In this document: piece after piece, positions 13,423 through 63,093 of the stretch
Layout: every line of letters begins with the position of its first letter
Numbering within the stretch: position 1 is the stretch's first letter
NCBI GenBank assembly: GCA_016793885.1
Contig: JAEUHE010000001.1
Location: 1 to 64,000, forward strand
Direction of reading: 5' to 3'
DNA: 64,000 nt
From: Verrucomicrobiales bacterium
GTDB taxonomy: Bacteria > Verrucomicrobiota > Verrucomicrobiia > Limisphaerales > UBA11320
The notes under the pieces: model-generated
The model's database searches: none
Told to the model about the DNA's origin: nothing
The model's input: the letters and a program-made list of their open reading frames with translations, nothing else
Translations under genes and position numbers: made by a program

Positions 13423-14004
13423 TCACCGATTCGGTGCATATTTGGCCAATTTGCGCTGGAGGCTGCGACGGTCGATGCGTAGGAGTCGGGCGGCTTGGGA
13501 AATGTTTCCGTGGCACTCGGCCAGGACACGGTGCATGTGTTGCCACTCGACCCATTCCAAGGAAGGAACTTGGGGGAGCCGTTCCTCCGTTGAGGGAGCG
13601 CCGGCGGCCGAGGGGTCGGCCGCGAGCGCATGCAGGATTTGATCCGTATCGGCTGGCTTGGTCAGGTAGTCGTGAGCGCCGAGCCGGACGGCTTTCATGG
13701 CCGTGGCCACGCTCGCATAGCCGGTGAGCATGACAATCCGGAGCTGGGGCTGGATCTGCAGAAGGCGCGGGATGAGTTCCAGGCCGCCGGACTCGGGGAG
13801 GCGAAGGTCGACGACCGCCGAAACGAAGTTGCCACGTTCGAGTTGTTCCACGGCGGCGGCCGAGTCGGCCACGGATTCGACCTCAATTCCGCGCTGTCGG
13901 AGCGCACTCGCCAGGCAATCCCGGAACCGCGGATCATCGTCCACGAGCAGGATAGGATCGAGTTTGGGGGTGGAACTGTCCGATGGCGGCTGGCCAGCAT
14001 TCAT
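13423..14004 (-). CDS. regA: Redox response regulator of the RegA/ActR family
   Basis: A 193-residue two-domain regulator. The receiver domain has the acidic pair in LLVDDDPRFRD, phosphoacceptor Asp66 (AVVDLRLP), Thr94 in MLTGYAS and Lys116 (DYLTKPAD). The C-terminal helix-turn-helix ends NISQAARLLRIDRRSLQRKL (residues 168-187), the Fis-like DNA-binding helix characteristic of RegA/PrrA/ActR. The start overlaps the kinase stop by 4 bases. In known systems RegA controls respiratory, photosynthetic or nitrogen genes by redox state. Its stop is only 2 bases from the convergent pseudopilin stop. Confidence 0.85.
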   Translation of the reverse strand: MNAGQPPSDSSTPKLDPILLVDDDPRFRDCLASALRQRGIEVESVADSAAAVEQLERGNFVSAVVDLRLPESGGLELIPRLLQIQPQLRIVMLTGYASVATAMKAVRLGAHDYLTKPADTDQILHALAADPSAAGAPSTEERLPQVPSLEWVEWQHMHRVLAECHGNISQAARLLRIDRRSLQRKLAKYAPNR

Positions 14005-15335
14005 GTCGGTGAAGGGGTGTTTAGGGGGACGGTTGGCAGTCGGAGCCGGACTGTGGTGCCTCGTCCTTTTTCAGAATCGATCTCCATGCTGCCACCCACC
14101 TGCTGAACGAAGAGGCGGACGAGGAAAATGCCGAGGCCCTTTCCTGAGCCTTTGGTGGTAAAGAACGGGCTGCCGAGTCGGCTTAGGAAGTCGGGATCCA
14201 TGCCACAGCCTGGGTCGATCACTCGCAGATCCAAGCTGTCGTTGGAGGTGGCGGCGGCGCGAACCTCGACGGTCGAACCCGCGGAGCTGGCTTCGAGACC
14301 ATTTTGGACCAAGGAAACCAGGCTTTGTATGAGGGCCACCCTGGGCAGATGGAGGCAGGTCCCTTCCGACGCGTCATGAATGGCGATCCGCGAGAGTTGT
14401 TCGGGCAGCAACCGCGAGCGCATTTCCTTGAAGCAATCGGACAAGGCATACCCTTCGACATCGGGAGCGGAGTCCCCGATTGCATCGGGGTTGATTTGGT
14501 CCAGGATCACACGACAGCGGTCCACCTCTTCCCGGATGAAGCGGGCGGCCGGAAGGAACTCTTGGGCGGCGCTGCTGCGATAGGCCGTGCGAGTGAGTTC
14601 GTGCGATGCCACAGCGATGCTGGCCAGGGGGCTTCCCAGCTCATGGGCAACCCCCGCGGCGAGGGCTGTGAGAGCAGCCGATCGCTCCGTTTCGGCGGCG
14701 AGGGATTGGGCGCGAGCTAGGTCGCGTTGTTGCTGTCGAATCGAGGCATTGAGCTGGATGACGAAGTAGCTGATGGCGGCGGCGGTCAGCACGAAGGAAA
14801 CCAGCATGCCTTGGAGATGGAGGTTGGTTTCCGCATGCGCCGTGGTGTGCGCCAGCATTCCGTGGGCGAGGTGGCCGGAAGCGGAGGGGAGAAAGAAAAG
14901 GGCGGCGTAACAAAGGGAGCACCAGCCGCAGAGCGCGCCCGTCCACAGTCCGCTGACCAGCATGGCGGCCATGGTGATGTGGATCAGGTAGAAGGAGCCA
15001 AATGGATTGTGCGGTCCGCCGCTGCAGGCGAGGAGTCCGGTCAGGGCGAGCGCATCCAGCAGTAATACGCCAGCGATCCAGTTTGCGCCGTCCCCCGGAA
15101 CTCGATCCCTGAGCGCAGGCAGAGCGATGTTACTGAGCGCTACGAGCGTGACGATGGTCAGCATCTCGGGCACCGGTAAAGGAATCTTGAGACAGGACCG
15201 GACTGCGAGGATGGTGATCGTTTGGCCGATCACGGCCGTCCAGCGGAGTCTGACCAGCCAATCCCACGGCGCGGGACGGAGCAACGGAATGCCGGATCGC
15301 GGCTGAGCTGAGGCGACTAAGACATGAGGGGGCAT
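14001..15335 (-). CDS. regB: Redox-sensing membrane histidine kinase of the RegB/ActS family
   Basis: The kinase probably starts at the Met at 15335 (444 residues); a longer frame reaches 15401, but its first 22 residues do not look like family sequence. Six hydrophobic segments lie between residues about 45 and 215 of the long form, with GGPHNPF after the third (128-134), the ubiquinone-sensing loop signature of RegB. The H-box is AAGVAHELGSPLASI with His253, followed by VDRCRVIL with Cys296, matching the position of the redox-active Cys known from RegB. The N and G boxes (QNGLEAS, DPGCGM, GKGLGIFL) are intact. The downstream regulator overlaps it by 4 bases, and a small cytochrome lies upstream. 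Confidence 0.85.
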   Translation of the reverse strand: MPPHVLVASAQPRSGIPLLRPAPWDWLVRLRWTAVIGQTITILAVRSCLKIPLPVPEMLTIVTLVALSNIALPALRDRVPGDGANWIAGVLLLDALALTGLLACSGGPHNPFGSFYLIHITMAAMLVSGLWTGALCGWCSLCYAALFFLPSASGHLAHGMLAHTTAHAETNLHLQGMLVSFVLTAAAISYFVIQLNASIRQQQRDLARAQSLAAETERSAALTALAAGVAHELGSPLASIAVASHELTRTAYRSSAAQEFLPAARFIREEVDRCRVILDQINPDAIGDSAPDVEGYALSDCFKEMRSRLLPEQLSRIAIHDASEGTCLHLPRVALIQSLVSLVQNGLEASSAGSTVEVRAAATSNDSLDLRVIDPGCGMDPDFLSRLGSPFFTTKGSGKGLGIFLVRLFVQQVGGSMEIDSEKGRGTTVRLRLPTVPLNTPSPT

Positions 15336-15384
15336 GTAGTGGCGGAGTCGGTTCGACTCGCCTCCACAGCAAGGACAAGCAAGA

Positions 15385-15472
15385 GAGAGCGCGTCGCCCA
15401 CCGAAGGCTGACGAGGCCCTGCGGACAGGGCAGGAGCCAGCGAAAAGGGGATCCCCCCCCTGACGCGCTCTC
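15385..15472 (-). promoter_or_regulatory. Structured leader between the cytochrome and regB
   Basis: GAGAGCGCGTC (15385-15395) pairs exactly with GACGCGCTCTC (15462-15472), enclosing a second perfect hairpin GCCCTG-CGGA-CAGGGC (15416-15431). On the minus strand it lies in the 150-base gap between the small cytochrome stop and the preferred regB start. It could be an attenuator, a partial terminator or a dispersed repeat; no T-run follows. Confidence 0.45.
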
Positions 15473-23492: not shown

Positions 23493-26400
23493 TTAGGGCT
23501 GCGCGGGAGTCGTGAGCCGGTAATAGCGTTCACCTGATGACACGGGGTCCGGATCGGTCAGCGTCAATGCCCGATCGGCGGCCGCGGCCGGCACGTCCAG
23601 GACCTTCTCCCAGCCGCCTCCGGCGAGCGACGTCTTGCGGTAGACTGAGTAGGATCGGTCCGCGACCGCCTGGAAACGGATCCGCACTTGGGAACCGTCA
23701 GTGCTCAGCTCCACACTCTCCAGACGCAATCGGCTGGTTGCTTCCCTTGGATGGGTGCCCGCGATGAACTCCGACTGGTTCGTGAGGCCGTCGCCATCGG
23801 CATCCAAACCAGCGTCACCAGGATTCGCTCGGTCGAAACCATAGAAGTCCTCATAAGCGTCCGGCATCCCATCGGCATCACTGTCGGCGGAAACAAGATC
23901 CGAGGGACGGCCGGCGGTGTGCGTGGTGGTATACCAGTTGGCCGGATCGTTGCCATAGGCCGCGGGGCTTCGGCGCTGCAGCGATGCGCCCCCTCCGTCC
24001 GCATTGGTGGGCCAGGGAGAGCTCTGGGAATACCTAACCTTGTCGATCAGGATCCGGGGCACGTTCCCCTGGTTGATATCCGGCGGAAGCACGGGCTCGT
24101 CTGGAGCCACCAGTTCCACGCTGTCGCTCGAGTTGTCTAGCTTGCCCTCGTAAGGGCCGAAGATCGGAACCGTCGTGGGTGGGGAATACTTGGCCCGAAA
24201 CGAGGCCAGCGCCGCGGCATTCGTGGCGGGGTCAAACCCGACGAGCAAGGCGAAGCCCCGAGCAGGGATCGTGGTGCCGGTTGGGAACTCGTAGCTCACG
24301 GCATCGCGCAATCTCCACGTGTTGGTGGGATAGGCTGGGTCAAAGAGACTTACCGGCGTAGCGCCTGGGTTCTGAAGCTCGATGAACTCGCTGAGGGTGT
24401 CGTCGAGACGGTTGGTGCCGACCACCAGGTCGGGCGGATGATACATCACCTCGGTGATGAGAATCGGACCGATCCTTGGTCCTGAGTTCGCCGCGCCCAG
24501 AGTGGTGATCCTTTGGGAGGGGAACTCTTCCCGGTCGGTGCTGGTGACATGCCGGCCAAAACTAACCCCGTTGAAGGACGCACCAAAATCGAATCCGTGC
24601 GAGTATGGGAGGATCACCCCGGCGTCATCGGCGGCAAACAGCCAGATCTGATCGCCGAGCGCGCTCAGGCGGAAGCCCCGGTCTCCTGCGGCCGCCGCGT
24701 TGAAATCTGATTCATCGAAGACGGCGTAGCCAAGCGGTTGAAGAGTCCGCCCGGCGGGTATCTGAAACTTCCGTGGATCGTTGCGGTCATCGCTGAGATA
24801 CCATCGTCCGATGGACACCGATCCAGCGGTCGGATTGTAGAGTTCGATGGCGTCCAGCTGCGGTAGATCCGTATGGGTGAGGGCCTCGTTGATCAGCACG
24901 GTGGGTATCGCTGGCGGCTCGCCATCGACGGAGCCAGGTGAACCTTGGATGGCTGCGCTCGGACGCCAGGAGGCAGCGCTGTCCCAGGCGTTCTCCAAGG
25001 TGGTTTCCGAACGAATCACCAGAGAGTAACCCAGCCCATCGGTGACGGGGTGCCAGCCATCCTGGTAGTTGAACTCGAACAGCTCCTGATTCAGCGCATT
25101 CTCAAGTCGCAGGGTCTCTCCGGAATCATCGAGCGAATCACGGAAGATTCCAGCAGGCTTAAGGGCGGTTCCGTATCGCGCGGTGAACGCCTCCGTATCG
25201 GCCGCGAGCACCAGCGTCGACCCGGCTGGGAGGAGAATGATCGAGCTCGTGCTGAAGTTGAAATCGATCCCCTTGGTGAATCGTGCGCCATGCAGATCGA
25301 CGGTCTGGGCGGAGATGTTCTTCAGTTCCAGAAACTCGAAACTGGAGGCTGTCCAGCTGCCATTTTGGATGAGCTCGGCAGCCGACGGAGCGAGCGGGTG
25401 GTAATGGATCTCCGTGAGGGCCAGATCACCTGGACGGACAATCCGGAAGGTGGTGTAGCGCGCACTGGTCAGGCCGGACCAAGAACTGCTGATCTGCGGG
25501 TTTCCCGAGCCGGTCAGGTTCCGATGGGCCGCGTTGAAGCATCGTGCTCGTATATCCAGCACTCCATTAATGGTGAGCGGAGCGCTGTACACCAGGGCGG
25601 CTGGTGAGACTCCTCCTCCGGGGAGGCGCGGGTCGGTTCCATTGGTCGTGTAATAGACGCGTGCCCCGGAAGGTCCCGTGAGGGTGAGGGATGTTCCTGG
25701 AAGCGCCTCGCCCGCGAGTCGCCCGAGCGTTGGTCTGGCCAGTAGGTTGGTGTCGATGAAGTTCAGTCGGCGGCTCAACCAGTTTTTGAGAAAGGCGATT
25801 TCGCCGGCTTGATTTCCACCGCGCTTGCCCTGCTGCCAGCGCGCGAGATCGCGCACGGAGGCCTCTACGACCTTTGCGTTCAGGGTGTCGATGATGCGGT
25901 TGAGATTGGTGACGCTGAGGGTATTCGGGCGCAGCTCCTGCCAGCGATCGATCCAGCGCTGCCAGAAGTCGGGGTCCTGAAATAATCGCCCCCACCAGGC
26001 CTGGGTGGCGAAGCCGAAGAAGTCGGTGCCGCCGCCGGAACTCCAAATGCGCGGGTCACTGTCGCGTCCGTCCGTGGAACCGATGGCCCGGTCGAAATCC
26101 CACACCGGCCCGGCTACCAAAAGTCCGCCGCGGTCCTTGTGCATGAATGTGCTGAGCCGGAGTGCATCGACATTGAAGGTCATCACGTTGATGAGGTGAT
26201 GATCGATCCAAGCGGGAACGTCGATGTAGGCGGCATAGCCCGTGAGGGGGTTGGTGTAGCTGGCGCTGTTCAGGGCGGACGCAAAGCGGTTGAGGTACTG
26301 CGTCAGGTAGTCGCGCTGGGGAGCGCGTTGGGGCGTGCGCAACTCGACTTCCTTGGGCTCAAAGTAGGCCGCTTGCTGGCCTCCCGCATTGAATCCCGCA

Positions 26401-28895
26401 TCGCCTGGGTCAGTGCGATCGACCTTGAAGATATAGCCGCCCGTCAGCGCAGGAAGCTGGTTGTCCACGGCATCGAGCCGGGCGATGTTTACCCGCTTGT
26501 CGCTGCGTTTCACTTTTTCAAGGATGTTGTATACGCCGACGTAGTGACTGGAGTCCAGGGAGCCGGTGCCGGTGTTGACGTAGACCTCCGCGAATCGATA
26601 GCGCGGAGCGTAACGTCCCATCTGGTCGCTCACCTCGAAGGCTAGCGGGTTGTGGATGAGCGAAGGATCGAAGAAGAACGGGGCGTGGAAGACGAAATCC
26701 GACTCAGGGGGTAACCCGAGCAGCTCGATATCTTTGTCCGCGTTGAGCTCGTCCCAGGCCTCCACGTTGTAGTTGGCCTTCGCGTTGCCGAGGGTGCTGG
26801 AGCCTCGTTTATCCATGGCGATCCGTGTCGTGAGCACGGGCAGATTGGTCAGGGACGTGCGCCCGTTGGCTCCCGGTTCAAAAACGGCCATGAACGCCGG
26901 CAGGTCTCCGTCGTTGGGAACCGCTGACCCAAATGTGTCGATCACCACGATGGGGATATCGGAGCTGGCGGTGGCGGCCGTGGAGGCGATCGGCAAATAG
27001 AACTCCGACCTGGCCGGACTTGGGATTTTCCCGGGGGCGAAGGCCCGGGCTCGGACGCGCCGTTTGGTGCTCACCGAGATCGGGTCGGTGTATCTCACCG
27101 AGTTGGTGGTGGGCAGGGTGCCATCGATCGTGTAATGAATTCGCGCCAGCGGATCGCTGGTGCTGAGGCTGAGCAAAAACGGGGTTCTGAAGGTGCCCCC
27201 GGGATGGGAGAAAATCACATCGGCGGTGAAACCGTCGCCGCGCACGGAATTGCGTGCTCCCGGTGTGGGGGTGGCGAAGAGCACCGGATCTAGCCGCGTC
27301 GTGGGATCCAGCCCATAGCTGATATCCTCGCGCTGCGCCGGATACTGAGGCCGGAACTGGGTGGCAATCGTGACTCGATCCGGATGCACCAAAGCCAGGT
27401 ACTCTCCGTTCCGCTCGAGCTTGAAATTGGTGTGAAGGGGGGCGGTCGGGTTGACCCGATCCTTCTCATCGGCGTAGACCACCAGGTAGGAGTTTGCATT
27501 GAGAGTGAGGTGCGGAAACTTCCATTTGGCCAAATTTTCCGGGTCGTCGGTCAGGGCAAAGCCAAAGAGATCCACGGGGGTGGTGCCTGCGTTATAAATC
27601 TCAATCCAGTCGGAGGCGTCCCCGTCCTCATCTCGAAGCCCCTTCGCGTTTACCGCGAGAAACTCGTTGAGCACGATATCCGACAGCGCGGCTGTCGAGT
27701 CCAGGGTGTAACTCCAGGAACCACCCGAGAACTCATTGGGCGTGGCTGCCAGATCCCGGATTCCATGAGTATCCTTCCAGCGGACTTGGACGGAGCCATC
27801 CGGGAACCCCGGGAGGGCGAAGAGGTAGTCGGTTGGGGACAGAGCGGTGAGCTGCGATGCGGGCAGGCCATTGACGAGCAAATCCCCGGCATCGACCCCG
27901 GAGACCGGTTCATCGAACTGAATTTCGATGCTGGTGAGCCTTCGGATCAGTGTGCCGGGAATGGGCAGCACGGCATCGGTGCGCGGAGGGGTGATATCCT
28001 GGATCTGGTAGGCCCAGGTAGAACCGGTCGCGGTAGCGATAAATGCGTTAGGGGGCTGAGCGAGGTCGGTAATCCCGTGAGCCGCGGCCCAAGTCACGTT
28101 GACGGTGCCGGACTTTCTCGCCGTGAAGGAGAAGGTGTAGGTGTTGTCTCCGCCGGTGACGGCGGATGCTGGTGAGCCGTTGATCAAGAGGTCTTCCGCT
28201 TGGACACCGAAGACGGGCTCAGTGAAGACGACGGTGATCTCGCCCAATCCGGAGACCGTGCCTGGCGGTGGAGATTTGGACGAGACAGCGGGTGCGATCA
28301 CGTCGGCCACTGCGGTGCGCAGCGCGGCGCTGAACTGGAAGTCACTGCTGTCGTTCAACGAGGCGTTGAAGGCGAGCACTGTCATTAGATTGGTTCCTTC
28401 GCGCAGGTAACTCGAAGGGGAGGGGACGGTGAATGAGCGTCGGAAAGGTAGCGTGCCCTCGTTGACCGCGCTGCTGGCGGTTCTATTAAATGTCAGGTCG
28501 CCATCCGGCACATTCTCACGGGTGAGCAGAGTGCCGTTGATCCAGATCAGGCAACCGTCATCGACGTAGACATCGAGATCGAGTTGGCTGATCCCTGCCG
28601 CTCCCTGCACCTGGAAGAGGCGGCGCAAGAACACGGAGGTGTACAGCCCGCGCATATCCGACAGCTCGGTTCCGGACAGGGGATCTCCATAGAACAGGGG
28701 GGCCGGCCCCTGGGCCCAGGCGGAATCGTTAAAGTCGAGTCGATGCCACGCTTCTCGGGGCGTGGATGCCTCGGCTGTTCCCTTGAAATACTTCCAAGCG
28801 GCGTTGGTGCTGAACAGCGTCGCTCCCTCCGCGGGGAGGAGGCACATCAACGAACACGACACCCACTTCACCAGGCTAACCAGAATACGTCTCAT
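23493..28895 (-). CDS. Giant exported CotH-kinase/lamin-tail protein
   Basis: 1800 residues with a signal peptide ending near residue 25. Order seen: a galactose-binding-like domain (about 30-190, WYxxR-type AWHRLDFNDSAWAQG); two SbsA-like Ig domains (about 195-400, PPPGTVSGLGEITVVFTEPV and GTLIRRLTSIEIQFDEPV); a lamin-tail domain (SDIVLNEFLAVNA); a chitobiase/hexosaminidase C-terminal-like domain (HYTIDGTLPTTNS); a CotH kinase region with VWDFDRAIGSTDGRDSD; a second such domain (VYYTTNGTDP); three more lamin-tail domains (DLALTEIHYHPL, PTVLINEAL, PILITEVMYHPP); an Asp-rich calcium-binding-like stretch (DSDADGMPDAYE, DADGDGLTNQSE); and a terminal module ending RYYRLTTP. CotH kinases phosphorylate proteins, but the target here is unknown. 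Confidence 0.85.
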   Translation of the reverse strand: MRRILVSLVKWVSCSLMCLLPAEGATLFSTNAAWKYFKGTAEASTPREAWHRLDFNDSAWAQGPAPLFYGDPLSGTELSDMRGLYTSVFLRRLFQVQGAAGISQLDLDVYVDDGCLIWINGTLLTRENVPDGDLTFNRTASSAVNEGTLPFRRSFTVPSPSSYLREGTNLMTVLAFNASLNDSSDFQFSAALRTAVADVIAPAVSSKSPPPGTVSGLGEITVVFTEPVFGVQAEDLLINGSPASAVTGGDNTYTFSFTARKSGTVNVTWAAAHGITDLAQPPNAFIATATGSTWAYQIQDITPPRTDAVLPIPGTLIRRLTSIEIQFDEPVSGVDAGDLLVNGLPASQLTALSPTDYLFALPGFPDGSVQVRWKDTHGIRDLAATPNEFSGGSWSYTLDSTAALSDIVLNEFLAVNAKGLRDEDGDASDWIEIYNAGTTPVDLFGFALTDDPENLAKWKFPHLTLNANSYLVVYADEKDRVNPTAPLHTNFKLERNGEYLALVHPDRVTIATQFRPQYPAQREDISYGLDPTTRLDPVLFATPTPGARNSVRGDGFTADVIFSHPGGTFRTPFLLSLSTSDPLARIHYTIDGTLPTTNSVRYTDPISVSTKRRVRARAFAPGKIPSPARSEFYLPIASTAATASSDIPIVVIDTFGSAVPNDGDLPAFMAVFEPGANGRTSLTNLPVLTTRIAMDKRGSSTLGNAKANYNVEAWDELNADKDIELLGLPPESDFVFHAPFFFDPSLIHNPLAFEVSDQMGRYAPRYRFAEVYVNTGTGSLDSSHYVGVYNILEKVKRSDKRVNIARLDAVDNQLPALTGGYIFKVDRTDPGDAGFNAGGQQAAYFEPKEVELRTPQRAPQRDYLTQYLNRFASALNSASYTNPLTGYAAYIDVPAWIDHHLINVMTFNVDALRLSTFMHKDRGGLLVAGPVWDFDRAIGSTDGRDSDPRIWSSGGGTDFFGFATQAWWGRLFQDPDFWQRWIDRWQELRPNTLSVTNLNRIIDTLNAKVVEASVRDLARWQQGKRGGNQAGEIAFLKNWLSRRLNFIDTNLLARPTLGRLAGEALPGTSLTLTGPSGARVYYTTNGTDPRLPGGGVSPAALVYSAPLTINGVLDIRARCFNAAHRNLTGSGNPQISSSWSGLTSARYTTFRIVRPGDLALTEIHYHPLAPSAAELIQNGSWTASSFEFLELKNISAQTVDLHGARFTKGIDFNFSTSSIILLPAGSTLVLAADTEAFTARYGTALKPAGIFRDSLDDSGETLRLENALNQELFEFNYQDGWHPVTDGLGYSLVIRSETTLENAWDSAASWRPSAAIQGSPGSVDGEPPAIPTVLINEALTHTDLPQLDAIELYNPTAGSVSIGRWYLSDDRNDPRKFQIPAGRTLQPLGYAVFDESDFNAAAAGDRGFRLSALGDQIWLFAADDAGVILPYSHGFDFGASFNGVSFGRHVTSTDREEFPSQRITTLGAANSGPRIGPILITEVMYHPPDLVVGTNRLDDTLSEFIELQNPGATPVSLFDPAYPTNTWRLRDAVSYEFPTGTTIPARGFALLVGFDPATNAAALASFRAKYSPPTTVPIFGPYEGKLDNSSDSVELVAPDEPVLPPDINQGNVPRILIDKVRYSQSSPWPTNADGGGASLQRRSPAAYGNDPANWYTTTHTAGRPSDLVSADSDADGMPDAYEDFYGFDRANPGDAGLDADGDGLTNQSEFIAGTHPREATSRLRLESVELSTDGSQVRIRFQAVADRSYSVYRKTSLAGGGWEKVLDVPAAAADRALTLTDPDPVSSGERYYRLTTPAQP

Positions 28896-30450: not shown

Positions 30451-32562
30451 ATGTCCATTCGTCAACGAATTCTGTGTGCGCTCGGCTCCTTGCTCCTCGT
30501 GGGCAGCCTGGTGAGTTGGCTGGCGGTACGCATGATCCAAGACATGGAGTCCAGCATCTCCTTTCTGAGCAGCAACAGCGCTGTGCAGGCTGGGACCGCC
30601 GCGAAAATGGTAACGACGCTGGCTCGATTGGAGAATCAGTTAGGCGCCATGCTCTCGACCAGCAAGCGATTGGGGGAGGGGGATGAGCAGGGACACAGCT
30701 ATCTGGATCAGCAGTGGGCAGGGGCACTGACTGAATATCAGAGTTTGCAGACCTACCTGTCCAATTGTGCAACGGCCGCCCGAGCAACTTCGTCTTCGGT
30801 AGGGCGGGGGGAGAGCTTCGGAGGCATGCGCGATGCCGGCACAGTCGAATCGCCCAGACATCTGGGAGAGCTCGACCGGCAGCTGGCCAACTTTCGTCCA
30901 CATTTGGAGACCTTCTACACCAAGGTAAAGGGTTCGCCCTCTGAAGCCAGGATTTACCTGGAGGGAGAGCTGGATTTGGTTTTGGCTGAGCTGAGTCGCT
31001 CGTTTAACCTATATTTGTCTCAAGCGGAGGGTGATCTTGCTGTGGCCGCGATCGAGGCCCGCGCCCAGGCCGGTCGGACGGTGACCAGTATCATCCTGCT
31101 CTGGTGTCTCGCGGCCAGCTGTGTCGCTGGGCTCACTTGGTGGAGTGTTCGATCGCTGGTAGCAAGGCTCGCCGTCATCCGTGAGGCAGTTGCATCTCTC
31201 GGACAGGGGGGGCTCGGGATTCGCTTGCCCACGGGTGAGAAGGACGAGCTGGGAGAGATCGCCGACGCCTTTAACCGCATGTGCGAGGATCTTCATCGGA
31301 CCACCCTGTCCAGGGACTACGTTGAGGCCATTCTGCAAAACACCCCGCTTCCTCTGATTGTTGTTTCGCCTAGTGGCTTCATTCGCTCGGCGAACCGGGC
31401 CTGTGAGCGGCTCCTGAACATCGGTCCCAACGAGCTGGACAGTCTGGCTTGGACTGCGTTGTTTCCGTCGGGAGGAAGCCTGCCTTTGGCAGCCGTGTTG
31501 AGCAAGGATGTCGTGCTTCGAGCCCATGGCAACGTGCTGATCCCGGTTTCCCTGTCCATGTCGGCTGTGCGCGATGAGGATGATCAGCCTGTGGACTGGA
31601 TCTGCCTGGCTGAGGACCTGCGGGAGCGGAAGAAGACCGACGAAGCGATGCGGGAGTTGCAAGCAAGCCTGGTGGAATCCTCGCGCAAAGCCGGGATGTC
31701 GGAGATTGCGACGGGAGTGCTTCACAATATCGGGAACGTGCTTAACAGCGTTAATGTGTCGGCAAACCTCCTCCTGGACCAACTGAGGGCCTCACGAGCA
31801 TCGAGCTTCACGAAGGCTGCCGAACTTCTGCGGTCGAACCTGGATCAGATCGGTCACTTCATCACCCACGACCCCAAGGGCCAAAAGCTGCCCAAGTTTC
31901 TTATCGGGCTGTCGGAGCAACTCAACCGCGAACAAAAGGCCTGGTCGGATGAGCTGGACCAGCTGCTACGCAACATCGAACACATCAAGCAAGTGGTCGC
32001 GGTTCAGCAGTCGTATGCCAAACTGTCCGGGGTGATGGAGCGGCTTTCGGTCGAGACCTTGCTGGAAGATGCGTTGAGGCTGTCATCCGCGTCGCTGGCG
32101 CGCCATCAAATCGAGGTGGTTCGGGCATACGACCCCGTCCCGGAGGTCTTCCTGGATCGGCACAAAACCCTCCAGATCATCATCAATCTTGTGAACAACG
32201 CCAAGCAGGCGCTGCTGAAGCGGCCGTTGGACCGTCGTTTAACCCTGCGCATCCAAAAGAGCCTCGATGGCACGAAGCTCAGGATACAAGTTGCGGATAA
32301 CGGTGAGGGTATCGAAGCGCAGAACCAGCTGAGAATTTTTCAGCATGGGTTCACTACGAAATCCACGGGGCATGGATTCGGGCTTCACAGCGGGGCGAAT
32401 AGCGCGAAGGAGATGGGGGGGGCGCTGTCCGTCTCCAGCCTGGGCATCGATTGCGGAGCGGAGTTTACCCTGGAGCTTCCCCTGAACGTCACTCAGTCCG
32501 GTGGTGGGACTCACGCGCAGGACGACTCCCCGCCTGAACATGCACGCGAGACGGCAGCCTAG
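30451..32562 (+). CDS. Membrane histidine kinase, HAMP-PAS, unorthodox H-box
   Basis: 703 residues. TM1 about 8-28, a periplasmic helical domain to about 208, TM2 about 211-230, HAMP 232-282 (GEKDELGEIADAFNRM), PAS about 290-390 (LPLIVVSPSGFIRSANRAC), then a kinase core. The phospho-site region is ATGVLHNIGNVLNSVNVSAN with His425, where the usual Glu/Pro-following pattern is replaced by Asn-Ile-Gly; the same motif occurs in the kinase at 34447-36501. The ATPase part has INLVNNAKQAL, VADNGEGI and STGHGFGLHSGA. It converges on a receiver gene with a 4-base overlap of the stops. A phosphorelay with the neighbouring receivers is likely; its signal is unknown. Confidence 0.85.
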   Translation: MSIRQRILCALGSLLLVGSLVSWLAVRMIQDMESSISFLSSNSAVQAGTAAKMVTTLARLENQLGAMLSTSKRLGEGDEQGHSYLDQQWAGALTEYQSLQTYLSNCATAARATSSSVGRGESFGGMRDAGTVESPRHLGELDRQLANFRPHLETFYTKVKGSPSEARIYLEGELDLVLAELSRSFNLYLSQAEGDLAVAAIEARAQAGRTVTSIILLWCLAASCVAGLTWWSVRSLVARLAVIREAVASLGQGGLGIRLPTGEKDELGEIADAFNRMCEDLHRTTLSRDYVEAILQNTPLPLIVVSPSGFIRSANRACERLLNIGPNELDSLAWTALFPSGGSLPLAAVLSKDVVLRAHGNVLIPVSLSMSAVRDEDDQPVDWICLAEDLRERKKTDEAMRELQASLVESSRKAGMSEIATGVLHNIGNVLNSVNVSANLLLDQLRASRASSFTKAAELLRSNLDQIGHFITHDPKGQKLPKFLIGLSEQLNREQKAWSDELDQLLRNIEHIKQVVAVQQSYAKLSGVMERLSVETLLEDALRLSSASLARHQIEVVRAYDPVPEVFLDRHKTLQIIINLVNNAKQALLKRPLDRRLTLRIQKSLDGTKLRIQVADNGEGIEAQNQLRIFQHGFTTKSTGHGFGLHSGANSAKEMGGALSVSSLGIDCGAEFTLELPLNVTQSGGGTHAQDDSPPEHARETAA

Positions 32563-33059
32563 GCTGCCGCACGAGCCAGTTCCCAGCGGCGAGTCAGGGC
32601 GTGAACAATTTGGAGCAGCTCAATGTTGTCGAAAGGCTTCTTGAGGATCAGTAAATTCTCCGGGTGAGCTAGTTTGGACACGATCTCCTCCCACGTGTAG
32701 TCGGAGTAGGCTGTGCAGAGAACCACCTGCAGTGTAGGATCCTTCTCCCAAAGGCGCTGAATCGTTTGAATGCCGTCCCAACCGGGAGGCATTCGCATGT
32801 CGACAATGGCCAAGGCGAACGGTTGGTTGCTCGCTGCCGCTTGCTCAAGCTTCAACAAACCTTCTGCACCCTGCGTAGCCGATTCAGTGTCAACTTGAAG
32901 CGGCGCTTGGTGCTTGGTAGTGGTTTCGAACAGCTCGGACTCCAGATCCTCCAAGGCTTGATCACTGGTCCTCTGAGCGCGGAGGATCTTCCGGATATCT
33001 TCGTGGATCGACAAGGTGTCGTCGATAATGAGAACGCGATGTCGCAGGGAGGTGTTCAT
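32559..33059 (-). CDS. Stand-alone receiver protein with extended insert
   Basis: A 166-residue receiver with no output domain. The acidic pair is in LIIDDTLSIHEDIRKIL, the phosphoacceptor is Asp87 in IVDMRMPPGWDG, the switch residue in CTAYSD and the Lys in LILKKPFD (140-141). Between helix 1 and strand 2 it has about 35 extra residues with LEDLESELFE, also present in the hybrid encoded just upstream; this insert is not in ordinary CheY-like proteins. Its start overlaps the hybrid stop by 4 bases. With no DNA-binding part it may act as a phosphate sink, a relay step or through protein contacts. Confidence 0.85.
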   Translation of the reverse strand: MNTSLRHRVLIIDDTLSIHEDIRKILRAQRTSDQALEDLESELFETTTKHQAPLQVDTESATQGAEGLLKLEQAAASNQPFALAIVDMRMPPGWDGIQTIQRLWEKDPTLQVVLCTAYSDYTWEEIVSKLAHPENLLILKKPFDNIELLQIVHALTRRWELARAAA

Positions 33060-34450
33060 GCCGCTTGAGTTCTGGTTGCGTGGGCCGAGTTGTAAAACGG
33101 GATGGTGAGAGTGAACACCGATCCCAAACCGGGCGCACTGTCAGCCGTCAGGGTGCCACCCATGAGATCTGCCAGTCGACGGCAGATCGCCAATCCCAGC
33201 CCGGCCCCCCCGAACCGTCGGGTCGACGAGCCATCGGCTTGCACAAAAGGATTGAACAACTTGGCCAGCTTCTGGTGGGAGATGCCTATGCCCGTGTCTT
33301 GCACTTTCACGGACAGGTAGGTTTGGTCTCTGCTCTTTGAATGGAGCGAGAGTGTAAGGCGCACGGTTCCCTTTTCGGTAAACTTGATCGCGTTGCTGGT
33401 GAGATGGAGCAGCACCTGAGCCAGGTGGGGGGCGTCCCCGAACAGCACCTCAGGAACGTCAGACGTTGCTTCTCCTTTTAGATTGAGGTGCTTGGCGGCC
33501 GCTTGCTGCTGGAAGAAAGCGGTGATGCGATCCAGAACCGCTCGGGGATGAAATTCGGAACACTGAATGGCGATGTTACCCGAATCGATCTTGGAGAAGT
33601 CCAGGAGTTCTTCCACGATTTTAAGCAGGGAATTGCCGCTCTGTTTGATGGTCTCGACCGAATCACGCTGTTCCGCGGTGAGGTTCGTATCCTCCAGCCA
33701 CTCGGTCATCCCGAGGATGCCGTTTAGCGGTGTTCGGAGCTCATGGCTCATGTTGGACACAAACTCGCTCTTCATGCGGCTGACCTCGGCCAGTTCCTGA
33801 ATCGCGGCCTGAAGCTGGGCGTTAGTCTTCTGGAGTTCGGCCGTCCGCTCATCAACCACTCCATTGAGATCTACGATCTGCTGGCGCACACGCCCATAGA
33901 GGTGCCATTTTCGGCTCAACGCGTGGGCAAGTTGGAGCACTTCCACGGGATCGAAGGGTTTCTTGAGAATGACGAAGTTGTCATTGCGACCGAGTCGATG
34001 CAGTATCTGGCTCCAGGAGTAATCCGAGTAGGCCGTGCAGATGACCACCTGCAAGTCGGGCGCATGCTCCCAGAGATTGGAAATGGTCTCAACGCCATCC
34101 CAACCGGGCGGCATCCTTCCATCCACAAACGCCACCGCATAGGGATCCTTGTTCTGCAGCGCCTGAACCACCAGGTCCAGCGCCTCCTTGCCTTGGAAGG
34201 CATAGTCAACGTCAAATCTCCCGTTCCACTCTGGCACCGACTCGGTATCTCCGAACAGATCACGCTCCTCCAAGTCCAGCTGGGTGGAGGCACCGGCCGG
34301 CGTGAGGATCTTGCGATAATCGGCGTGGATGGTAGGATTGTCGTCGACGATGAGAATTCGGTAGCGACGGTTCATCGTGTCCGTTTTGGCACGAGGCGTT
34401 GTCGTTTCAGGCGAAGGTTTGTCCATGGGTTGTTCTGTGGGATTCGTCAT
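33056..34450 (-). CDS. Receiver-histidine kinase hybrid
   Basis: 464 residues, no membrane segment. Residues about 28-185 are a receiver domain of the same subfamily as the neighbouring lone receiver: LIVDDNPTIHADYRKIL, the insert DLEERDLFGD, Asp110 in FVDGRMPPGWDG, and LKKPFDPVEV with Lys164. A coiled-coil linker (QQIVDLNGVVDERTAELQK) follows. Then a conventional HisKA with SNMSHELRTPLNGILGM (His236) and an ATPase domain to about 455 with LTSNAIKFTEKG, VQDTGIGI and GGAGLGLAICRRL. A receiver ahead of a kinase suggests it takes phosphate from an upstream kinase to control its own activity. It overlaps both neighbours by 4 bases. Confidence 0.88.
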   Translation of the reverse strand: MTNPTEQPMDKPSPETTTPRAKTDTMNRRYRILIVDDNPTIHADYRKILTPAGASTQLDLEERDLFGDTESVPEWNGRFDVDYAFQGKEALDLVVQALQNKDPYAVAFVDGRMPPGWDGVETISNLWEHAPDLQVVICTAYSDYSWSQILHRLGRNDNFVILKKPFDPVEVLQLAHALSRKWHLYGRVRQQIVDLNGVVDERTAELQKTNAQLQAAIQELAEVSRMKSEFVSNMSHELRTPLNGILGMTEWLEDTNLTAEQRDSVETIKQSGNSLLKIVEELLDFSKIDSGNIAIQCSEFHPRAVLDRITAFFQQQAAAKHLNLKGEATSDVPEVLFGDAPHLAQVLLHLTSNAIKFTEKGTVRLTLSLHSKSRDQTYLSVKVQDTGIGISHQKLAKLFNPFVQADGSSTRRFGGAGLGLAICRRLADLMGGTLTADSAPGLGSVFTLTIPFYNSAHATRTQAA

Positions 34451-36501
34451 GCCGCCAACGCTGGGTTGAGGATGGTGGTGGGACGCGTTTGGCCCTGGGC
34501 GACGGGCAGCTCAAGATCGAAGGAGGCGCCTCGCCCGAGTCCTTCGCTGCGGGCGGTCAAGGTTCCATTCATCTCCGCCGCTGCATTGGCGCCTGAATGA
34601 AGCCCGAAACCATGGCCATCCTTTTTGGTGGTGAAGCCGTGCTGGAAAATGCGTGTCATGTTCTCGGGGGCAATCCCCACTCCATTGTCCTCGATCGAGA
34701 TCCGCACTCGTCCCGGACCGGCCGAAGCGACCGAGAGCGTTACTAGCCGGTCTTGGGACCGCGAATGAGTTACCGCGTGCTTCGCGTTTCCGATCAGGTT
34801 GATGAGAATTTGCAGAACCTTGTGACGGTCCACGGCAATCGCGGGCACGGCGGAGTAATTGCGGAGAACCCTGATTCCGTGCCGGTCGAGTGCGCACTGA
34901 TGGATGTGCAGCGCATCCGCCAGGAGTTCGGCGGGCTGCAGGGACTCGATGAGTCCCGAAACCCTCGCGAAGCTCTGTTGCATAGCCACGATCTCCTTAA
35001 TGTGCTGGACATTGCGACTCATACTCCCGGCTTCCTCCATGACCCGATCACGCTCACCAACCAAGGCCTGTGTGAGGTTGTCAAGAAAGCCGAGTAACTT
35101 GCTACCCTTGGGATGGTTCTGGAGAAAGTCGCCCAGGTTTCCCTCATGCTGCCGCATGAGTTCCACGGCCTTACTCAAGGAGGAAAGCTTGGATTGCTCG
35201 AGCTGATTGACGACCAGCGTCGCAGAGACGTTAACGCTGTTGAGCACATTGCCGACATTGTGAAGCACGCCAGTGGCTACCTCTGCCATGCCGGCTTGGT
35301 GTGACAGGTTCACCAACTGCTTGTTCATCCGATCGAGCTCCTCCTCCGCCTGCTTTCGGGTGGTGATGTCCGTGTGGGAACCGGCGAACCGCACTGCGTG
35401 GCCGTTGTCCCCGAGCAGGGCTGCTCCCCGCGACAGGATCCAGCGGTAGCTGCCATCCTGGTGACGCATTCGGAACTCCACCTCGTAGACTTTCCCCGCC
35501 GGTGCCGAAAGGTAATCGTCTACCACTTGAAGCACCCTCTCGCGATCGGACGGGTGGAGGTGAGACTTCCAACCGTCCAGGGTGTTCGGAAAGTCTGCTT
35601 CCCCATAGCCGAGCATCGACTTCCAGCGCGGCGAAAAGTACAACTCATCGGTTTCGAGGTTCCAATCCCAGAGCCCGTCGCTGGAGCCCATGACCGCGAC
35701 CTCGTATCGCTGCTGGCTTTGCCGTAGATCGTTCTGAGCCCGGGTTCGTTCCGTTACTTCCTCCTGAAGTGTGCTGTTGATTTTGCGCAGGATCTCGTCG
35801 TTCGCTTGAATTCGGGTCAACATCTGGTTGAAAGTATCCGTCAAGACCCCCAGTTCATCATCACTACTTCGATTGGCCCGCACGCTGTAGTCCTTCTGTT
35901 CGGAGACTCGGCGAGCCGTGTCCGTCAGATCGAGGATTGGCTTGGCCACCGCTTTCTGGATATGTCCGGCGAGCGGGAGCACCAAGATGAGCGATCCCGC
36001 CAAGACCGCTGCCAGCAACCCGCCGTAGAGTCGCAGAAGGTGCCTTCGGGTGCCGGTAAAGTCGGAGCGGATGACTAGAGTGCCCAGACGTTTGCCTTCC
36101 AGCAAAATCGGGTGAGAGAGGATGATTTGCCCGTCGGCAAATTGGGTGGCATCTCCCTCGCTAAACTTGTGAGCGTCGATATCCTCGGAGTCGGCCCCGT
36201 AGTGAGCGAACTCCTGACCATCGGCGAGGAGGATGTGGGCGCAGAAGATCTCGGGTTTGACCTGCAGCGCTCGCAGGACCTCTTCAGCGGCCTTCTCGTC
36301 ATGAAAAGCCACCGCGCCCGTCGTGTTGGCGGCGGTGATCTTGGCAACGCTAGTCAGGTCATCGGTGATTGTCCTGCGAATGCTTACGAACTGGAACAAG
36401 AACAAAGTCGCGCAGGCGAAGGTGAGCACGATCGCGCAGGTTGCGGTCAGGGCCAGTGTCAGCTTCTGGCGGAATGGCAGGTTCTGTAGAGCGCGTCCCA
36501 T
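34447..36501 (-). CDS. CHASE8-like HAMP-PAS histidine kinase of the YfiR locus
   Basis: 684 residues. TM1 14-38; a periplasmic domain 44-150 with SVAKITAANTTGAVAFHDEK and EEVLRALQVKPEIFCAHILL, resembling CHASE8, the YfiR-controlled periplasmic domain of the diguanylate cyclase YfiN; TM2 158-180; HAMP 182-232 (SDDELGVLTDTFNQML); PAS 262-385 (GLWDWNLETDELYFSPRW). The kinase core has ATGVLHNVGNVLNSVNVSAT with His414, matching the convergent kinase at 30451. The ATPase has INLIGNAKHAV, IEDNGVGI and DGHGFGLHSGA. It begins 2 bases after the yfiR-like stop and overlaps the hybrid. By analogy YfiR would bind the periplasmic domain; this is inference from architecture. Confidence 0.87.
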   Translation of the reverse strand: MGRALQNLPFRQKLTLALTATCAIVLTFACATLFLFQFVSIRRTITDDLTSVAKITAANTTGAVAFHDEKAAEEVLRALQVKPEIFCAHILLADGQEFAHYGADSEDIDAHKFSEGDATQFADGQIILSHPILLEGKRLGTLVIRSDFTGTRRHLLRLYGGLLAAVLAGSLILVLPLAGHIQKAVAKPILDLTDTARRVSEQKDYSVRANRSSDDELGVLTDTFNQMLTRIQANDEILRKINSTLQEEVTERTRAQNDLRQSQQRYEVAVMGSSDGLWDWNLETDELYFSPRWKSMLGYGEADFPNTLDGWKSHLHPSDRERVLQVVDDYLSAPAGKVYEVEFRMRHQDGSYRWILSRGAALLGDNGHAVRFAGSHTDITTRKQAEEELDRMNKQLVNLSHQAGMAEVATGVLHNVGNVLNSVNVSATLVVNQLEQSKLSSLSKAVELMRQHEGNLGDFLQNHPKGSKLLGFLDNLTQALVGERDRVMEEAGSMSRNVQHIKEIVAMQQSFARVSGLIESLQPAELLADALHIHQCALDRHGIRVLRNYSAVPAIAVDRHKVLQILINLIGNAKHAVTHSRSQDRLVTLSVASAGPGRVRISIEDNGVGIAPENMTRIFQHGFTTKKDGHGFGLHSGANAAAEMNGTLTARSEGLGRGASFDLELPVAQGQTRPTTILNPALAA

Positions 36502-36503
36502 AG

Positions 36504-37145
36504 CTATTTCCCGGTCACGGATCGCGCCACCCCCAACAAGCGCGAGCTAAACACCAAGCCCGATTCCATGGCTGCGGCGCGGTTGATGTCGAATCGCACC
36601 CGGTTATCGTGCAGGACGAACTGAATCATCCCTCCGGAGTCCCGGAAGCCGTCGAGTTCGCTGATGGTCAGGATAGGCTTGCCCGCGACCAGTTCCTGGA
36701 CGCGTTTGAGCCTGGCGGTTTCAGATCGTGAGATGAACAGTAGGTGGCAGTCCTGGATCGGGCTGTCGCTGGAAACGTTTCTGATTTCCAGAGGGCGGCC
36801 GTTGACGGTCTCTCCGGCGATCGCCTCCTGGAGGGCGGATCCAAAAGGATCGTCCCCACAAATCCCGATGATCAAGGGACTTTTTGGGGTTGCGAAGCTG
36901 GCCGCTGGCCACTGGGTAAACTTCGTGAAATTCAGCAGTGCCACCGCCTTGACCCGGTATTCGATGGAGGGTGGCGTTGCCGCGTTGCCTAGCGACGTCA
37001 GAGCCCAGAGGAAGGCCAAAGCGAACCACATGGCCCAGCGGGTTCGTGGAGGGGCCCGCCGCCGCCGGGGTCTTTTCGCTTCAGCGCAGATGGCTCTCAT
37101 CCCTCTCCGGAGGGCGTCTGGCCTGCGTTGAAGGCTTGGTCCCAT
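36504..37145 (-). CDS. yfiR: YfiR-family periplasmic protein (DUF4154)
   Basis: 213 residues from the Met at 37145; an inner Met at 37031 begins the hydrophobic signal stretch MWFALAFLWALTSLGNA and is the better start if tight coupling with the TonB gene is ignored. The mature part carries the YfiR/DUF4154 landmarks: YRVKAVALLNFTKFTQWP, LIIGICGDDPFG, IQDCHLLFIS (Cys96 and Cys133), KPILTISELDGF, GGMIQFVLHDNRVRFDIN and a final SRLLGVAR. In Pseudomonas, YfiR is a periplasmic repressor that binds the CHASE8 domain of the cyclase YfiN. Here it lies directly between a TonB receptor and a kinase with a CHASE8-like domain, with 2-base gaps on both sides. Confidence 0.88.
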   Translation of the reverse strand: MGPSLQRRPDALRRGMRAICAEAKRPRRRRAPPRTRWAMWFALAFLWALTSLGNAATPPSIEYRVKAVALLNFTKFTQWPAASFATPKSPLIIGICGDDPFGSALQEAIAGETVNGRPLEIRNVSSDSPIQDCHLLFISRSETARLKRVQELVAGKPILTISELDGFRDSGGMIQFVLHDNRVRFDINRAAAMESGLVFSSRLLGVARSVTGK

Positions 37146-37147
37146 GC

Positions 37148-39292
37148 TCAGAAGCGTATGGTCGCCTTGATCCTGAAGCTCCGACCATCTTGAAGGATTG
37201 AGGATTGGGCGAAGTCGTCCGTGACGGGCACTCCGTAGGCGGTATCCAGCAGGTTATAGATGCCTGCGGAAGCCTCCACCCCCCGAATCAACTCTCGGCT
37301 GAAGAGGTTCAAATTGACGGTCACATGCCCGCCTTCGCCTGGTTTGGAGGCGAACCCCAGACTCCTGCTCCGGGCTTGGATTTCCAGGCCGGCAAAGAGT
37401 TTCTCCTCATAGAGTGGCACACTAACGCTCGCTTTCACCATGTGCTTGGGCGAGTTTGGTAGCCAGGCGCCTGTCCCGCCATCCGTTACCGAAGCGTAGG
37501 TGTAAGCGAGGCGAGTTCGAAGGCTGTGCCGCCAGCGTCCTTCCAGTTCGGCCTCAAATCCCTTCATGTTGGCCGACTGATCGTTGTCAAAGCCGATGAG
37601 CCCGGAGAAATCGTGCTGAGTCAGAAGGTCATCCAGCACGTTGTAGAAGAGATTCGCGCTCAGGCTCAGATTGGGGCTGAGGCGCTGTTCGATCACGAGC
37701 TCATGGGATCGGATGTGCTCAGGCCCCACATTCGTTCCCGAAAGCGACATGGACGAGACGTAGTAGAGCTCATAGGCATTCGGAGCTCGGTAGCCCTGGC
37801 CGTACACCAATTTGAAGGTGGTGTCGGTCCACGGCTGATAGATAGCCCCGCCCCGGAAGTTGATGGCACCCCCAAAGGTATTGAAGTGATCGTACCGAAT
37901 GCTGCCGTTCAGAAGGAGGGTCTGGCTCAGGGAAAGTTCGTCTTGAAGGTAGACCCCGTAGTTGCGAAAGCCTGTCTTTCGGTCCACATAAATCTCGCGT
38001 GGGTCCAGATCGTAGTTCTTTTGCTGGACCTCGAGGCCTAGGTTGAACTCGGTACCTACCAGGATCTTGTTGCGATTGAACAGTGTTTTGCTGACGTTCG
38101 CCTCTCCGCCCCACCACCACGCCAGGGCGTCGTCGATGTTGAAGGAGACTGGGTTGGGCGGGGCGGGGCCGGAGCTGGGAAAAGGGTAGACTCCACCGTA
38201 GCGATAGCGGTCCAGGTAGAGCCTCCCCATGACCTCCCAACTTTCGCCGAAGGCGCGCTGGTATCTTCCTTCCAGATAGTCGCGCATGTCCCTGAGTCGA
38301 TAGCGAGGGTCGTTGAAGACGTTGCCGTATTGCGCGGTGGGGACCTGCTTGGTTCGCTCCGACCAGGCGCCGCTGAGCGTGAAGTCGGCATAGCTGAGCG
38401 ACATAAACGCGTTGCGCGATTTTTCATGATCCATGTCGCGAGCGATGCCCCCGTTTTCAGCGCGATATTCCGGGTAGAACAGTTCCGAGTGGCCGGCGCG
38501 GTCCAGCAGGGTTCCTGACAGAAGCATGGCTAGGCCATTGGTGAACTGGCGACCGTAGGTCAGGCGTCCGGAGAAGGTGTCGTAGCTGCCCAAGCCCCCG
38601 GAAACCTCGCCGCCATCCACCGAAGCCGGCGTCCGGGTGACGACGTTGATCACGGCAAAGAAGGCGTTGTTGCCATAGATCGAAAAGCCGGGTCCCCGCA
38701 CCACTTCGACGCGTTCGATAAGATCGACATCGACGGGAAACTCATAGCCGATCGGGGCGGTGTCATAGATCGGATCGGCGATCCGGTGCCCATTCACCAA
38801 GACTAGGGTGCGTCCTCCGTAACTGCCGGCGAAGTGGGCTCCGCGAGTTCCCAAAAAGGAGTACGACCGGTCGTTGTTCACGTAGAATCCGCGCACGCTG
38901 CTGAGCACATCTCCGAGCGTACGATGCCCGAAGTGTTGGATATCCTCCCGCGTTACGACACTGACCGAGGCGGGCGCTTCCGATGAGCGTTGCTCACGCT
39001 TGGAGGCGCTGGACACGATGAGCACGGGAATCTCGCTTAACTCCTCCAGGGACATCGCCTTGAGGGCATCGACACTCAGTCCTTCATCTTCTCCTTTGCC
39101 CGCCCCTGTCGCTTCAGCTGCCGACAGGCAAAGCCCCAGGAGGAGCAGCACGCTGGCGATCAGCCGGCTCGCCGGCAGGGCCAGAGGCTGGGAGCACGTG
39201 GTGAAACGGCTCTGGAGTACGTATCGAACCCGTCTCGGGACATGCCCGATCCAGCTCTGACGTGTTCCGACGAATAGAAGCAAGGCCCACAC
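37148..39292 (-). CDS. TonB-dependent receptor of the YfiR-kinase locus
   Basis: 714 residues by the longest frame. A hydrophobic signal segment is at about 42-62 (LIASVLLLLGLCLSAAEA), so the real start is probably 20-35 codons inside. An acidic stretch SVDALKAMSLEELSEIPVL follows, then a TonB-box-like IVSSASK, the plug (residues 108-220: SVSVVTREDIQHFGHRTLGDVL, RTLVLVNGHRI, VVRGPGFSIYGNNAF) and a barrel with a terminal IKATIRF. The LSLEEL leader is common in receptors of the vitamin B12/colicin I type that sit beside two-component and YfiR genes. The locus context suggests this receptor senses or imports the signal; the ligand is unknown. Confidence 0.88.
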   Translation of the reverse strand: MWALLLFVGTRQSWIGHVPRRVRYVLQSRFTTCSQPLALPASRLIASVLLLLGLCLSAAEATGAGKGEDEGLSVDALKAMSLEELSEIPVLIVSSASKREQRSSEAPASVSVVTREDIQHFGHRTLGDVLSSVRGFYVNNDRSYSFLGTRGAHFAGSYGGRTLVLVNGHRIADPIYDTAPIGYEFPVDVDLIERVEVVRGPGFSIYGNNAFFAVINVVTRTPASVDGGEVSGGLGSYDTFSGRLTYGRQFTNGLAMLLSGTLLDRAGHSELFYPEYRAENGGIARDMDHEKSRNAFMSLSYADFTLSGAWSERTKQVPTAQYGNVFNDPRYRLRDMRDYLEGRYQRAFGESWEVMGRLYLDRYRYGGVYPFPSSGPAPPNPVSFNIDDALAWWWGGEANVSKTLFNRNKILVGTEFNLGLEVQQKNYDLDPREIYVDRKTGFRNYGVYLQDELSLSQTLLLNGSIRYDHFNTFGGAINFRGGAIYQPWTDTTFKLVYGQGYRAPNAYELYYVSSMSLSGTNVGPEHIRSHELVIEQRLSPNLSLSANLFYNVLDDLLTQHDFSGLIGFDNDQSANMKGFEAELEGRWRHSLRTRLAYTYASVTDGGTGAWLPNSPKHMVKASVSVPLYEEKLFAGLEIQARSRSLGFASKPGEGGHVTVNLNLFSRELIRGVEASAGIYNLLDTAYGVPVTDDFAQSSILQDGRSFRIKATIRF

Positions 39293-62800: not shown

Positions 62801-63093
62801 TGGAGGATACGCCCCGGCTGCTGGGTGAACTCTCGCGAGCCATGGAAACGGGCGACACGGCCGAGGTGGTCGCGATCTCCCATAAGCTAAAAAGTGCTTC
62901 GGGTTACTTCGGAGCCCGGCAGATGTCGATGACCTGCCATCAGCTGAAGGAGTTGGGTCGCAGCGGGAAGGTTGACTTCGGCGCCGGGTTGATGCGCCGG
63001 TTGGAGCGGGAGTTCGCCCTGGTGCGTGCCAAACTGGGAGAGGAGCGGGAACGCTTCTCGGGCAGCGAGACCGAGCATCGAAACGCCGCCTGA
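59887..63093 (+). CDS. CHASE hybrid histidine kinase with two receivers and HPt
   Basis: 1068 residues. TM1 32-50, periplasmic CHASE domain about 75-315 (GVxGLGF-type [37 protein letters not shown]), TM2 336-357, coiled coil, HisKA with [20 protein letters not shown] (His411), ATPase about 510-625 ([33 protein letters not shown]), a first receiver about 650-775, a second receiver about 798-925 with Asp850 in [14 protein letters not shown], and an HPt domain ending the protein with His999 in [14 protein letters not shown]. The first receiver lacks the usual Asp: DWILVERRL has Glu704 there, and LQPIRQS replaces the Lys. CHASE domains bind small molecules in other systems. A complete relay on one chain. 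Confidence 0.88.

Follow-up and report, generated by a model that had tools for sequence, protein, structure and literature searches.

A TonB receptor, YfiR and CHASE8 kinase locus of a Verrucomicrobiales bacterium as a candidate trans-envelope switch

The TonB receptor-YfiR-CHASE8 kinase locus analysed here is best explained, with a probability that we put at about 0.62, as a switch of three parts that spans the cell envelope and feeds a phosphorelay. YfiR would bind the kinase at its CHASE8 domain, around GAVAF, E74 and K137, and set the kinase activity, and the N-terminal tail of the receptor, just ahead of the presumed TonB box, would bear a YfiR-docking motif. The gene order, the residue covariation between YfiR and CHASE8, and the covariation between YfiR and the receptor motif, the last with a hold-out, support this reading. 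By the window we mean the whole 64 kb stretch of DNA that was analysed.

Composition and recurrence of the locus

All six open reading frames were found at the coordinates and on the strands given by an earlier, sequence-only reading, and the layout described there agrees with ours in its details as well: the minus-strand genes are spaced by 2-base gaps (37146-37147 and 36502-36503) or share 4-base overlaps (34447-34450 and 33056-33059), and the stop overlap with the convergent gene covers 4 bases (32559-32562). Pfam matches Plug (9e-18) and TonB barrel (1.1e-36) on the receptor, with no STN match at E 0.1, and DUF4154 (2.4e-46) on YfiR, which by similarity is expected to be periplasmic. On the kinase that follows, CHASE8 is matched at residues 42-144 (8.4e-17), together with HAMP, PAS_3 and HATPase, in keeping with the CHASE8-like domain that had been placed at residues 44-150; the remaining genes give REC-HisKA-HATPase, REC and HAMP-PAS-HATPase. 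The phospho-acceptor residues H414, H236, H425, D110 and D87 are present by sequence. The operon has no YfiB OmpA/Pal-like lipoprotein, the TonB receptor standing in that place, and no output gene was seen in it. The locus is flanked by genes for an FAD oxidase and an SMP-30-like protein (Pfam), and no Rfam family reaches its gathering score in the window (Table 1).

Table 1. Features of the locus, in window coordinates.
Feature	Coordinates	Strand	Remarks
TonB-dependent receptor, plug and barrel, no STN	37148..39292	-	Listed start codon GTG, not certain to be the true one
Putative N-terminal YfiR-docking motif of the receptor, residues 75-98, DALKAMSLEELSEIPVLIVSSASK	38999..39070	-	K78 at 39059-39061
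YfiR (DUF4154)	36504..37145	-	E112 at 36810-36812; F185; R202
CHASE8-HAMP-PAS histidine kinase	34447..36501	-	H-box HNVGNVLN with H414
GAVAF, kinase residues 62-66, counterpart of the proposed YfiR-binding motif AAVVF of YfiN	36304..36318	-
CHASE8 K137, charge partner of YfiR E112	36091..36093	-
REC (with insert, D110)-HisKA (H236)-HATPase	33056..34450	-	Domains from Pfam
Stand-alone insert-type REC (D87)	32559..33059	-	50% identity over 157 aa to the REC of the REC-kinase
Convergent HAMP-PAS kinase, HNxGNxLN type, H425	30451..32562	+	Likely member, judged from sequence

Elsewhere in the window lie two more TonB-type receptors devoid of the motif (7486-9651, plus strand, and a plug at 4883-5197, plus strand), further kinase and REC-like genes (13423-15401, minus strand, and 59887-63093, plus strand), and the gene for an 1800-residue protein with CotH, four lamin-tail and chitobiase-C domains (23493-28895, minus strand). 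The whole assembly contains seven plug domains, three of them linked to YfiR.

The sequence-only reading had looked to a conserved gene order in other genomes, and the TonB-YfiR-CHASE8 kinase order indeed recurs across phyla. The phylum of the window was sampled with 98 regions, made up of relatives of the same order and a draw from the phylum chosen regardless of neighbours, a few of which overlap; they hold 100 YfiR domains, of which 12 were dropped for short flanks. An adjacent CHASE8 gene was found in 79 of the resulting 88 YfiR loci (75 encoding a kinase, 4 without recognised output and 0 with GGDEF) and an adjacent TonB gene in 66, both being present in 59. The adjacent TonB gene is absent from 22 loci, and the two loci with neither gene are YfiR-kinase fusions. 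The best-scoring relatives fetched for the TonB receptor include receptors of similar loci (for example L093 and L134). In a set from named genomes, taken from the best 80 of 451 matches and hence biased toward similar YfiR proteins, CHASE8 lies within 1.2 kb in 61 and TonB in 59 of the 63 loci whose flanks measure 2.5 kb or more at both ends.

Other groups were sampled as well. The phylum of the Bryobacteraceae genome (30 of 43 listed loci, 29 usable) gave CHASE8 in 26/29 loci, 23 of them kinases and 0 GGDEF, and TonB in 26/29. Among 50 loci from the phyla of the Desulfobacterales and Gemmatimonadetes genomes, 43 were usable: TonB is present in 26/28 for the former, with 23 kinases and 1 GGDEF, and in 14/15 for the latter, with 13 kinases and 0 GGDEF. 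The class of the Steroidobacteraceae genome (30 of 36 listed loci, 26 usable) is more mixed, with 12 CHASE8 kinases, 6 CHASE8-GGDEF proteins and 8 loci with no CHASE8, and TonB in 14.

At the level of genomes, YfiR was found in 39 of 288 genomes of the window's phylum, CHASE8 over the cut-off in 40 and both in 37 (Fisher 1e-40, a value that ignores relatedness). With these 37 shared genomes, and since each of the three YfiR genes of the own genome adjoins a kinase scoring above the NF053592 cut-off, the co-occurrence is beyond chance. Two of the 39 YfiR genomes are without a Pfam CHASE8 match (G125 and G280). In both, YfiR occurs in fusions with a kinase, the two parts being linked, as judged by eye, by a coiled coil plus a membrane helix. 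G280 has in addition a third YfiR, which is unfused; the 72-aa ORF behind it matches the CHASE8 profile built in this work (L191). The natural YfiR-histidine kinase fusions, from genomes without a Pfam CHASE8 match, lie at L202:5970-8696 (minus strand), L203:7718-10372 (plus strand) and L200:1-1881 (minus strand), the last among the loci dropped for short flanks.

Several loci depart from the usual arrangement. L137 has two tandem TonB-YfiR units around a single CHASE8 kinase. In three of the four genomes searched from the genus of the window (L123, L125 and L126) there is no TonB gene within 1.2 kb of YfiR; the flank of the fourth (L124) is too short. By eye, the TonB-less loci have no recurrent upstream partner. 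An apparent TonB-YfiR fusion in L055 was rejected, as its ORF passes through N stretches.

The locus could in effect be a c-di-GMP system of the YfiBNR type, with the c-di-GMP enzyme encoded elsewhere and driven by phosphotransfer, and GGDEF-type genes do follow the kinase in four relatives (L061, L072, L095 and L100). We regard this as very improbable, as the CHASE8 protein itself is the kinase in 75 of the 79 phylum loci, and neither a profile built from 19 sequences nor a motif search found a GGDEF-type ORF in the 64 kb window; the sequence-only reading had likewise noted no GGDEF gene at the locus.

Covariation of YfiR with the receptor tail and with CHASE8

Receptors linked to YfiR share the stretch DLxxLSLEELMxxxVTSVSK immediately preceding the plug. 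A strict regular expression matched only 20 of 132 linked receptors and was replaced by a profile, which finds 171 of 174, 170 of these being its own building set. In 37 sampled receptor loci, which comprise the own genome's full set of 7 plus 30 of the 93 listed in six named genomes, the motif is found in 13/13 receptors at most 6 kb from a YfiR gene and in 0/24 others, with the reservations that 8 of the 13 positives were in the profile training set (5 were not) and that the N-terminus of L256 is cut; reading frames were checked. The 13 score above 8 bits, 10 lying within 2 kb of YfiR and three (L263, L269 and L273) at 3.5-5.8 kb, and the 24 others score below 1, none lying within 6 kb.

The covariation tests that follow use fewer sequences than columns and 8-10 shuffles each, and their p-values are overstated by the relatedness of the sequences. 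With 128 YfiR-TonB pairs the top coupling joins YfiR 112 to TonB 78 at 11.8 sd (maximum of 8 shuffles, 7.46). With 174 pairs it is, at 13.7 sd, the strongest of 42,195 pairs of columns at least 6 apart, within or between the proteins (maximum of 8 shuffles, 7.35). The coupling reads as a matching of charges: over all 174 pairs, K/R78 accompanies E112 in 52/53, the exception being L227, and K/R112 in 0/101 (4 gaps), the other 20 pairs having other residues at 112.

This pattern was then put as a prediction, recorded before the new sequences were read. From 60 new regions, 46 with a receptor N-terminus were kept and 14 dropped; 22 come from the Bryobacteraceae phylum and 24 from the Desulfobacterales phylum, and the training data had a few members of both. 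K/R78 was found in 5/5 pairs with E112 and in 0/37 with K/R112 (3 gaps; p 1.2e-6), the 4 others having an uncharged residue at 112. Positioned by the motif alone, with no alignment, the counts are 5/5 and 0/22 (p 1.2e-5). Moreover, of the 17 gains or losses of E at YfiR 112 on a tree from which these sites were left out, 11 are accompanied by a change at TonB 78 (p 7.6e-13); on the lineage leading to the window's own clade the changes at 112 and 78 are not coincident. Of the own genome's three systems, one reads E/K/K, one E/K/R and one R/A/E. The TonB receptor, which the sequence-only reading had cast as the outer-membrane input, is a likely outer-membrane partner.

Between YfiR and CHASE8 the signal is also found at the level of single residues. 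With 195 pairs, YfiR 202-CHASE8 74 ranks first among the inter-protein couplings, at 7.08 sd (maximum of 10 free shuffles, 6.14). With 228 pairs, the best are 202-74, 185-68, 202-61 and 112-137, at 6.2-7.0 sd, and 10 shuffles within 40 clusters reach a maximum of 5.94, 29 of these clusters being singletons and 81-84% of the rows having moved. Four of the top 10 couplings fall in the known interface region versus 0.28 expected, in a box that was drawn after the 195-pair couplings had been seen. Three of the best four, and 201-71 in addition, lie on the surface that genetic mapping in P. aeruginosa assigned to the AAVVF motif of YfiN and to the YfiR C-terminal patch around F162, the counterpart of F185 in the window (PMC3375315); the other top-20 couplings are elsewhere, some in membrane helices.

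In a hold-out of 33 new pairs, the charge pairs 112-137 (p 0.005, or 0.026 among charged residues only) and 202-74 (p 8e-4, or 0.004 among charged only) held, and 205-71 failed (p 0.24). CHASE8 137 follows YfiR 112 on the tree, where 8 of 15 changes coincide (p 3e-4); the TonB-less YfiR-CHASE8 pairs that would serve as a control for 112-137 are too few (n=19). The position of YfiN F70 is F or Y in 159/161 linked CHASE8 domains and in 33/33 held-out ones. Thirteen CHASE8 proteins are not beside YfiR: of the 8 in YfiR genomes 6 keep this F and 2 do not, and of the 5 in YfiR-less genomes 1 keeps it, a soft contrast since these five are weak family members. Distance correlations over 100 triples give 0.63 for YfiR-CHASE8 versus 0.28 for CHASE8 and its own kinase domain. 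Nearest-neighbour agreement did not favour YfiR-CHASE8 (19/100, versus 31 for YfiR-TonB and 23 for CHASE8-kinase domain).

The AF2 model of YfiR (pLDDT 94) has the YfiR fold and matches best the P. aeruginosa YfiR structures, with TM (query) 0.71-0.73; that of CHASE8 (pLDDT 92) has an extracytoplasmic PAS fold, with WalK, CitA and LapD-like matches.

Could shared ancestry alone account for these signals? The set would then be a cassette inherited together, in which YfiR has the kinase as its sole partner and the TonB gene is a regulated target placed in the operon by chance. Related systems do have residues in common by descent, TonB is found in 66 and not in all of the 88 phylum loci, and the mirror-tree signal between YfiR and TonB is weak once CHASE8 is taken into account (partial distance correlation 0.06). 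However, the within-cluster shuffles stay below the observed top couplings, the tree holds 11 coincident changes, the hold-out came from two phyla of which training had only some members, and the motif is missing from 24/24 sampled receptors away from YfiR. We therefore hold this account to be improbable.

A possible partner switch and its route to the receivers

The simplest reading of the two covariation signals is that YfiR makes direct contact with CHASE8 and with the receptor tail. Both the tail and CHASE8 charge-match YfiR 112, which suggests that their sites overlap. This points to a partner switch, in which the tail and CHASE8 would compete for YfiR and exclude one another. The shared residue fits competition, yet a three-way complex would be compatible with it too. 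YfiR could then be a ternary adaptor that binds the tail and CHASE8 simultaneously, the receptor signalling through it with no removal of YfiR. Each of the two partners co-varies with YfiR, as such an adaptor would have it, and the further tail couplings involve YfiR 116/117 and 68, not mainly the C-terminal patch. Nevertheless, three-way counts show both partners matching YfiR 112 with the same charge, which overlapping sites fit better, and we consider the adaptor unlikely, if a more serious contender than the two other alternatives.

The preferred partner switch would be gated by ligand. In line with what is generally known of TonB boxes, ligand would free the tail, which would capture YfiR and so change the state of the kinase. 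Inhibition as the effect of YfiR on the kinase is assumed by analogy with YfiN. Such a partner switch would have a parallel in P. aeruginosa, where the YfiR surfaces for YfiB and for YfiN are reported to overlap (PMC4655355). There is in our opinion an even chance that a charge code of wider scope is at work in several phyla, TonB 78 and CHASE8 137 both being read by YfiR 112, with tail and kinase competing and opposite codes helping to insulate paralogues within one cell, such as the three systems of the own genome, as a general outer-membrane-to-kinase route distinct from FecA-FecR.

Downstream, the HNxGNxLN kinase would phosphorylate two insert-type RECs, the one in the REC-kinase and the stand-alone one, a route proposed because of their co-occurrence. 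An insert-type REC gene is found in the same region (up to 20 kb fetched, the REC being usually the next gene) in 16/16 phylum loci with a CHASE8 kinase of the HNxGNxLN type versus 9/71 with other CHASE8 kinases, and in 7/8 versus 9/68 loci of the named set, where the miss, L075, sits on a 3-kb contig; the Fisher values of 2e-11 (phylum) and 4e-5 (named) ignore relatedness, and some loci belong to both sets. In 11 relatives the partner is a single polypeptide (687-731 aa) that combines an insert-type REC with a kinase part and shows a weaker REC match at its C-terminus, versus the shorter REC-kinase and separate insert-type REC of the window. The convergent kinase, 52% identical to the CHASE8 kinase across 273 aa of the kinase part, is likely a member of the system, as suggested by the second HNxGNxLN kinase that is near 4 of 16 comparable loci (L131, L134, L140 and L208).

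Relation to known systems

The sequence-only reading had called such loci possibly under-described as a system, but the set has not gone unnoticed. Distant YfiN homologues carrying sensor kinases were already reported in 2012 (Malone 2012, PMC3375315); there, as here, a YfiR is paired with a kinase-bearing protein of the CHASE8 type. Opitutus terrae is named in the legend of Fig. S5 of that paper among divergent YfiN homologues with kinase outputs. NCBIfam moreover names the same kind of trio, as TOL_0244 TonB receptor (NF053590), TOL_0243 YfiR-like (NF053591) and YfiR-associated kinase (NF053592). The window YfiR passes NF053591 (167.9 bits, cut-off 125); the kinase scores 193.8 against the NF053592 cut-off of 194, and 197.1 in a six-frame search; the receptor, at 115.7, is far below the equivalog cut-off of 645 of NF053590.

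TonB occurs 0 times in the main text of PMC3375315, whose section 12 describes no REC-kinase partner, and TonB, YfiR and CHASE8 occur 0 times in PMC4558063. No account of a TonB receptor acting on YfiR was found in the titles and abstract openings of the open-access papers listed. The residue-level evidence pointing to YfiR-CHASE8 and YfiR-receptor contact is new here, and the motif and the pairing of HNxGNxLN kinases with the REC insert are presumably novel.

The P. aeruginosa YfiBNR system shares with the window the YfiR fold, a CHASE8-HAMP input, an AAVVF-type CHASE8 site and, as described for it, an outer-membrane protein as the upstream partner (PMC3375315, PMC4655355). It differs in having the YfiB lipoprotein where the window has a TonB receptor, and GGDEF where the window has a histidine kinase and REC proteins; in our alignments, the window YfiR lacks the cysteines Cys145 and Cys152 that form a pair in its P. 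aeruginosa counterpart.

Another comparison is with the TonB receptors of the FecA/FecR type, which signal by their periplasmic N-terminus. The window receptor would likewise use its periplasmic N-terminus in signalling, but it has no STN match and would act through a short motif and YfiR, with no anti-sigma factor.

The outer-membrane input of the divergent Yfi operons had been left open because almost all of them are without YfiB, as reported by Malone 2012 (PMC3375315). If the receptor motif works as proposed here, TonB receptors would take the place of YfiB as the outer-membrane input of these operons, and kinases in several phyla would answer to a partner switch in the periplasm.
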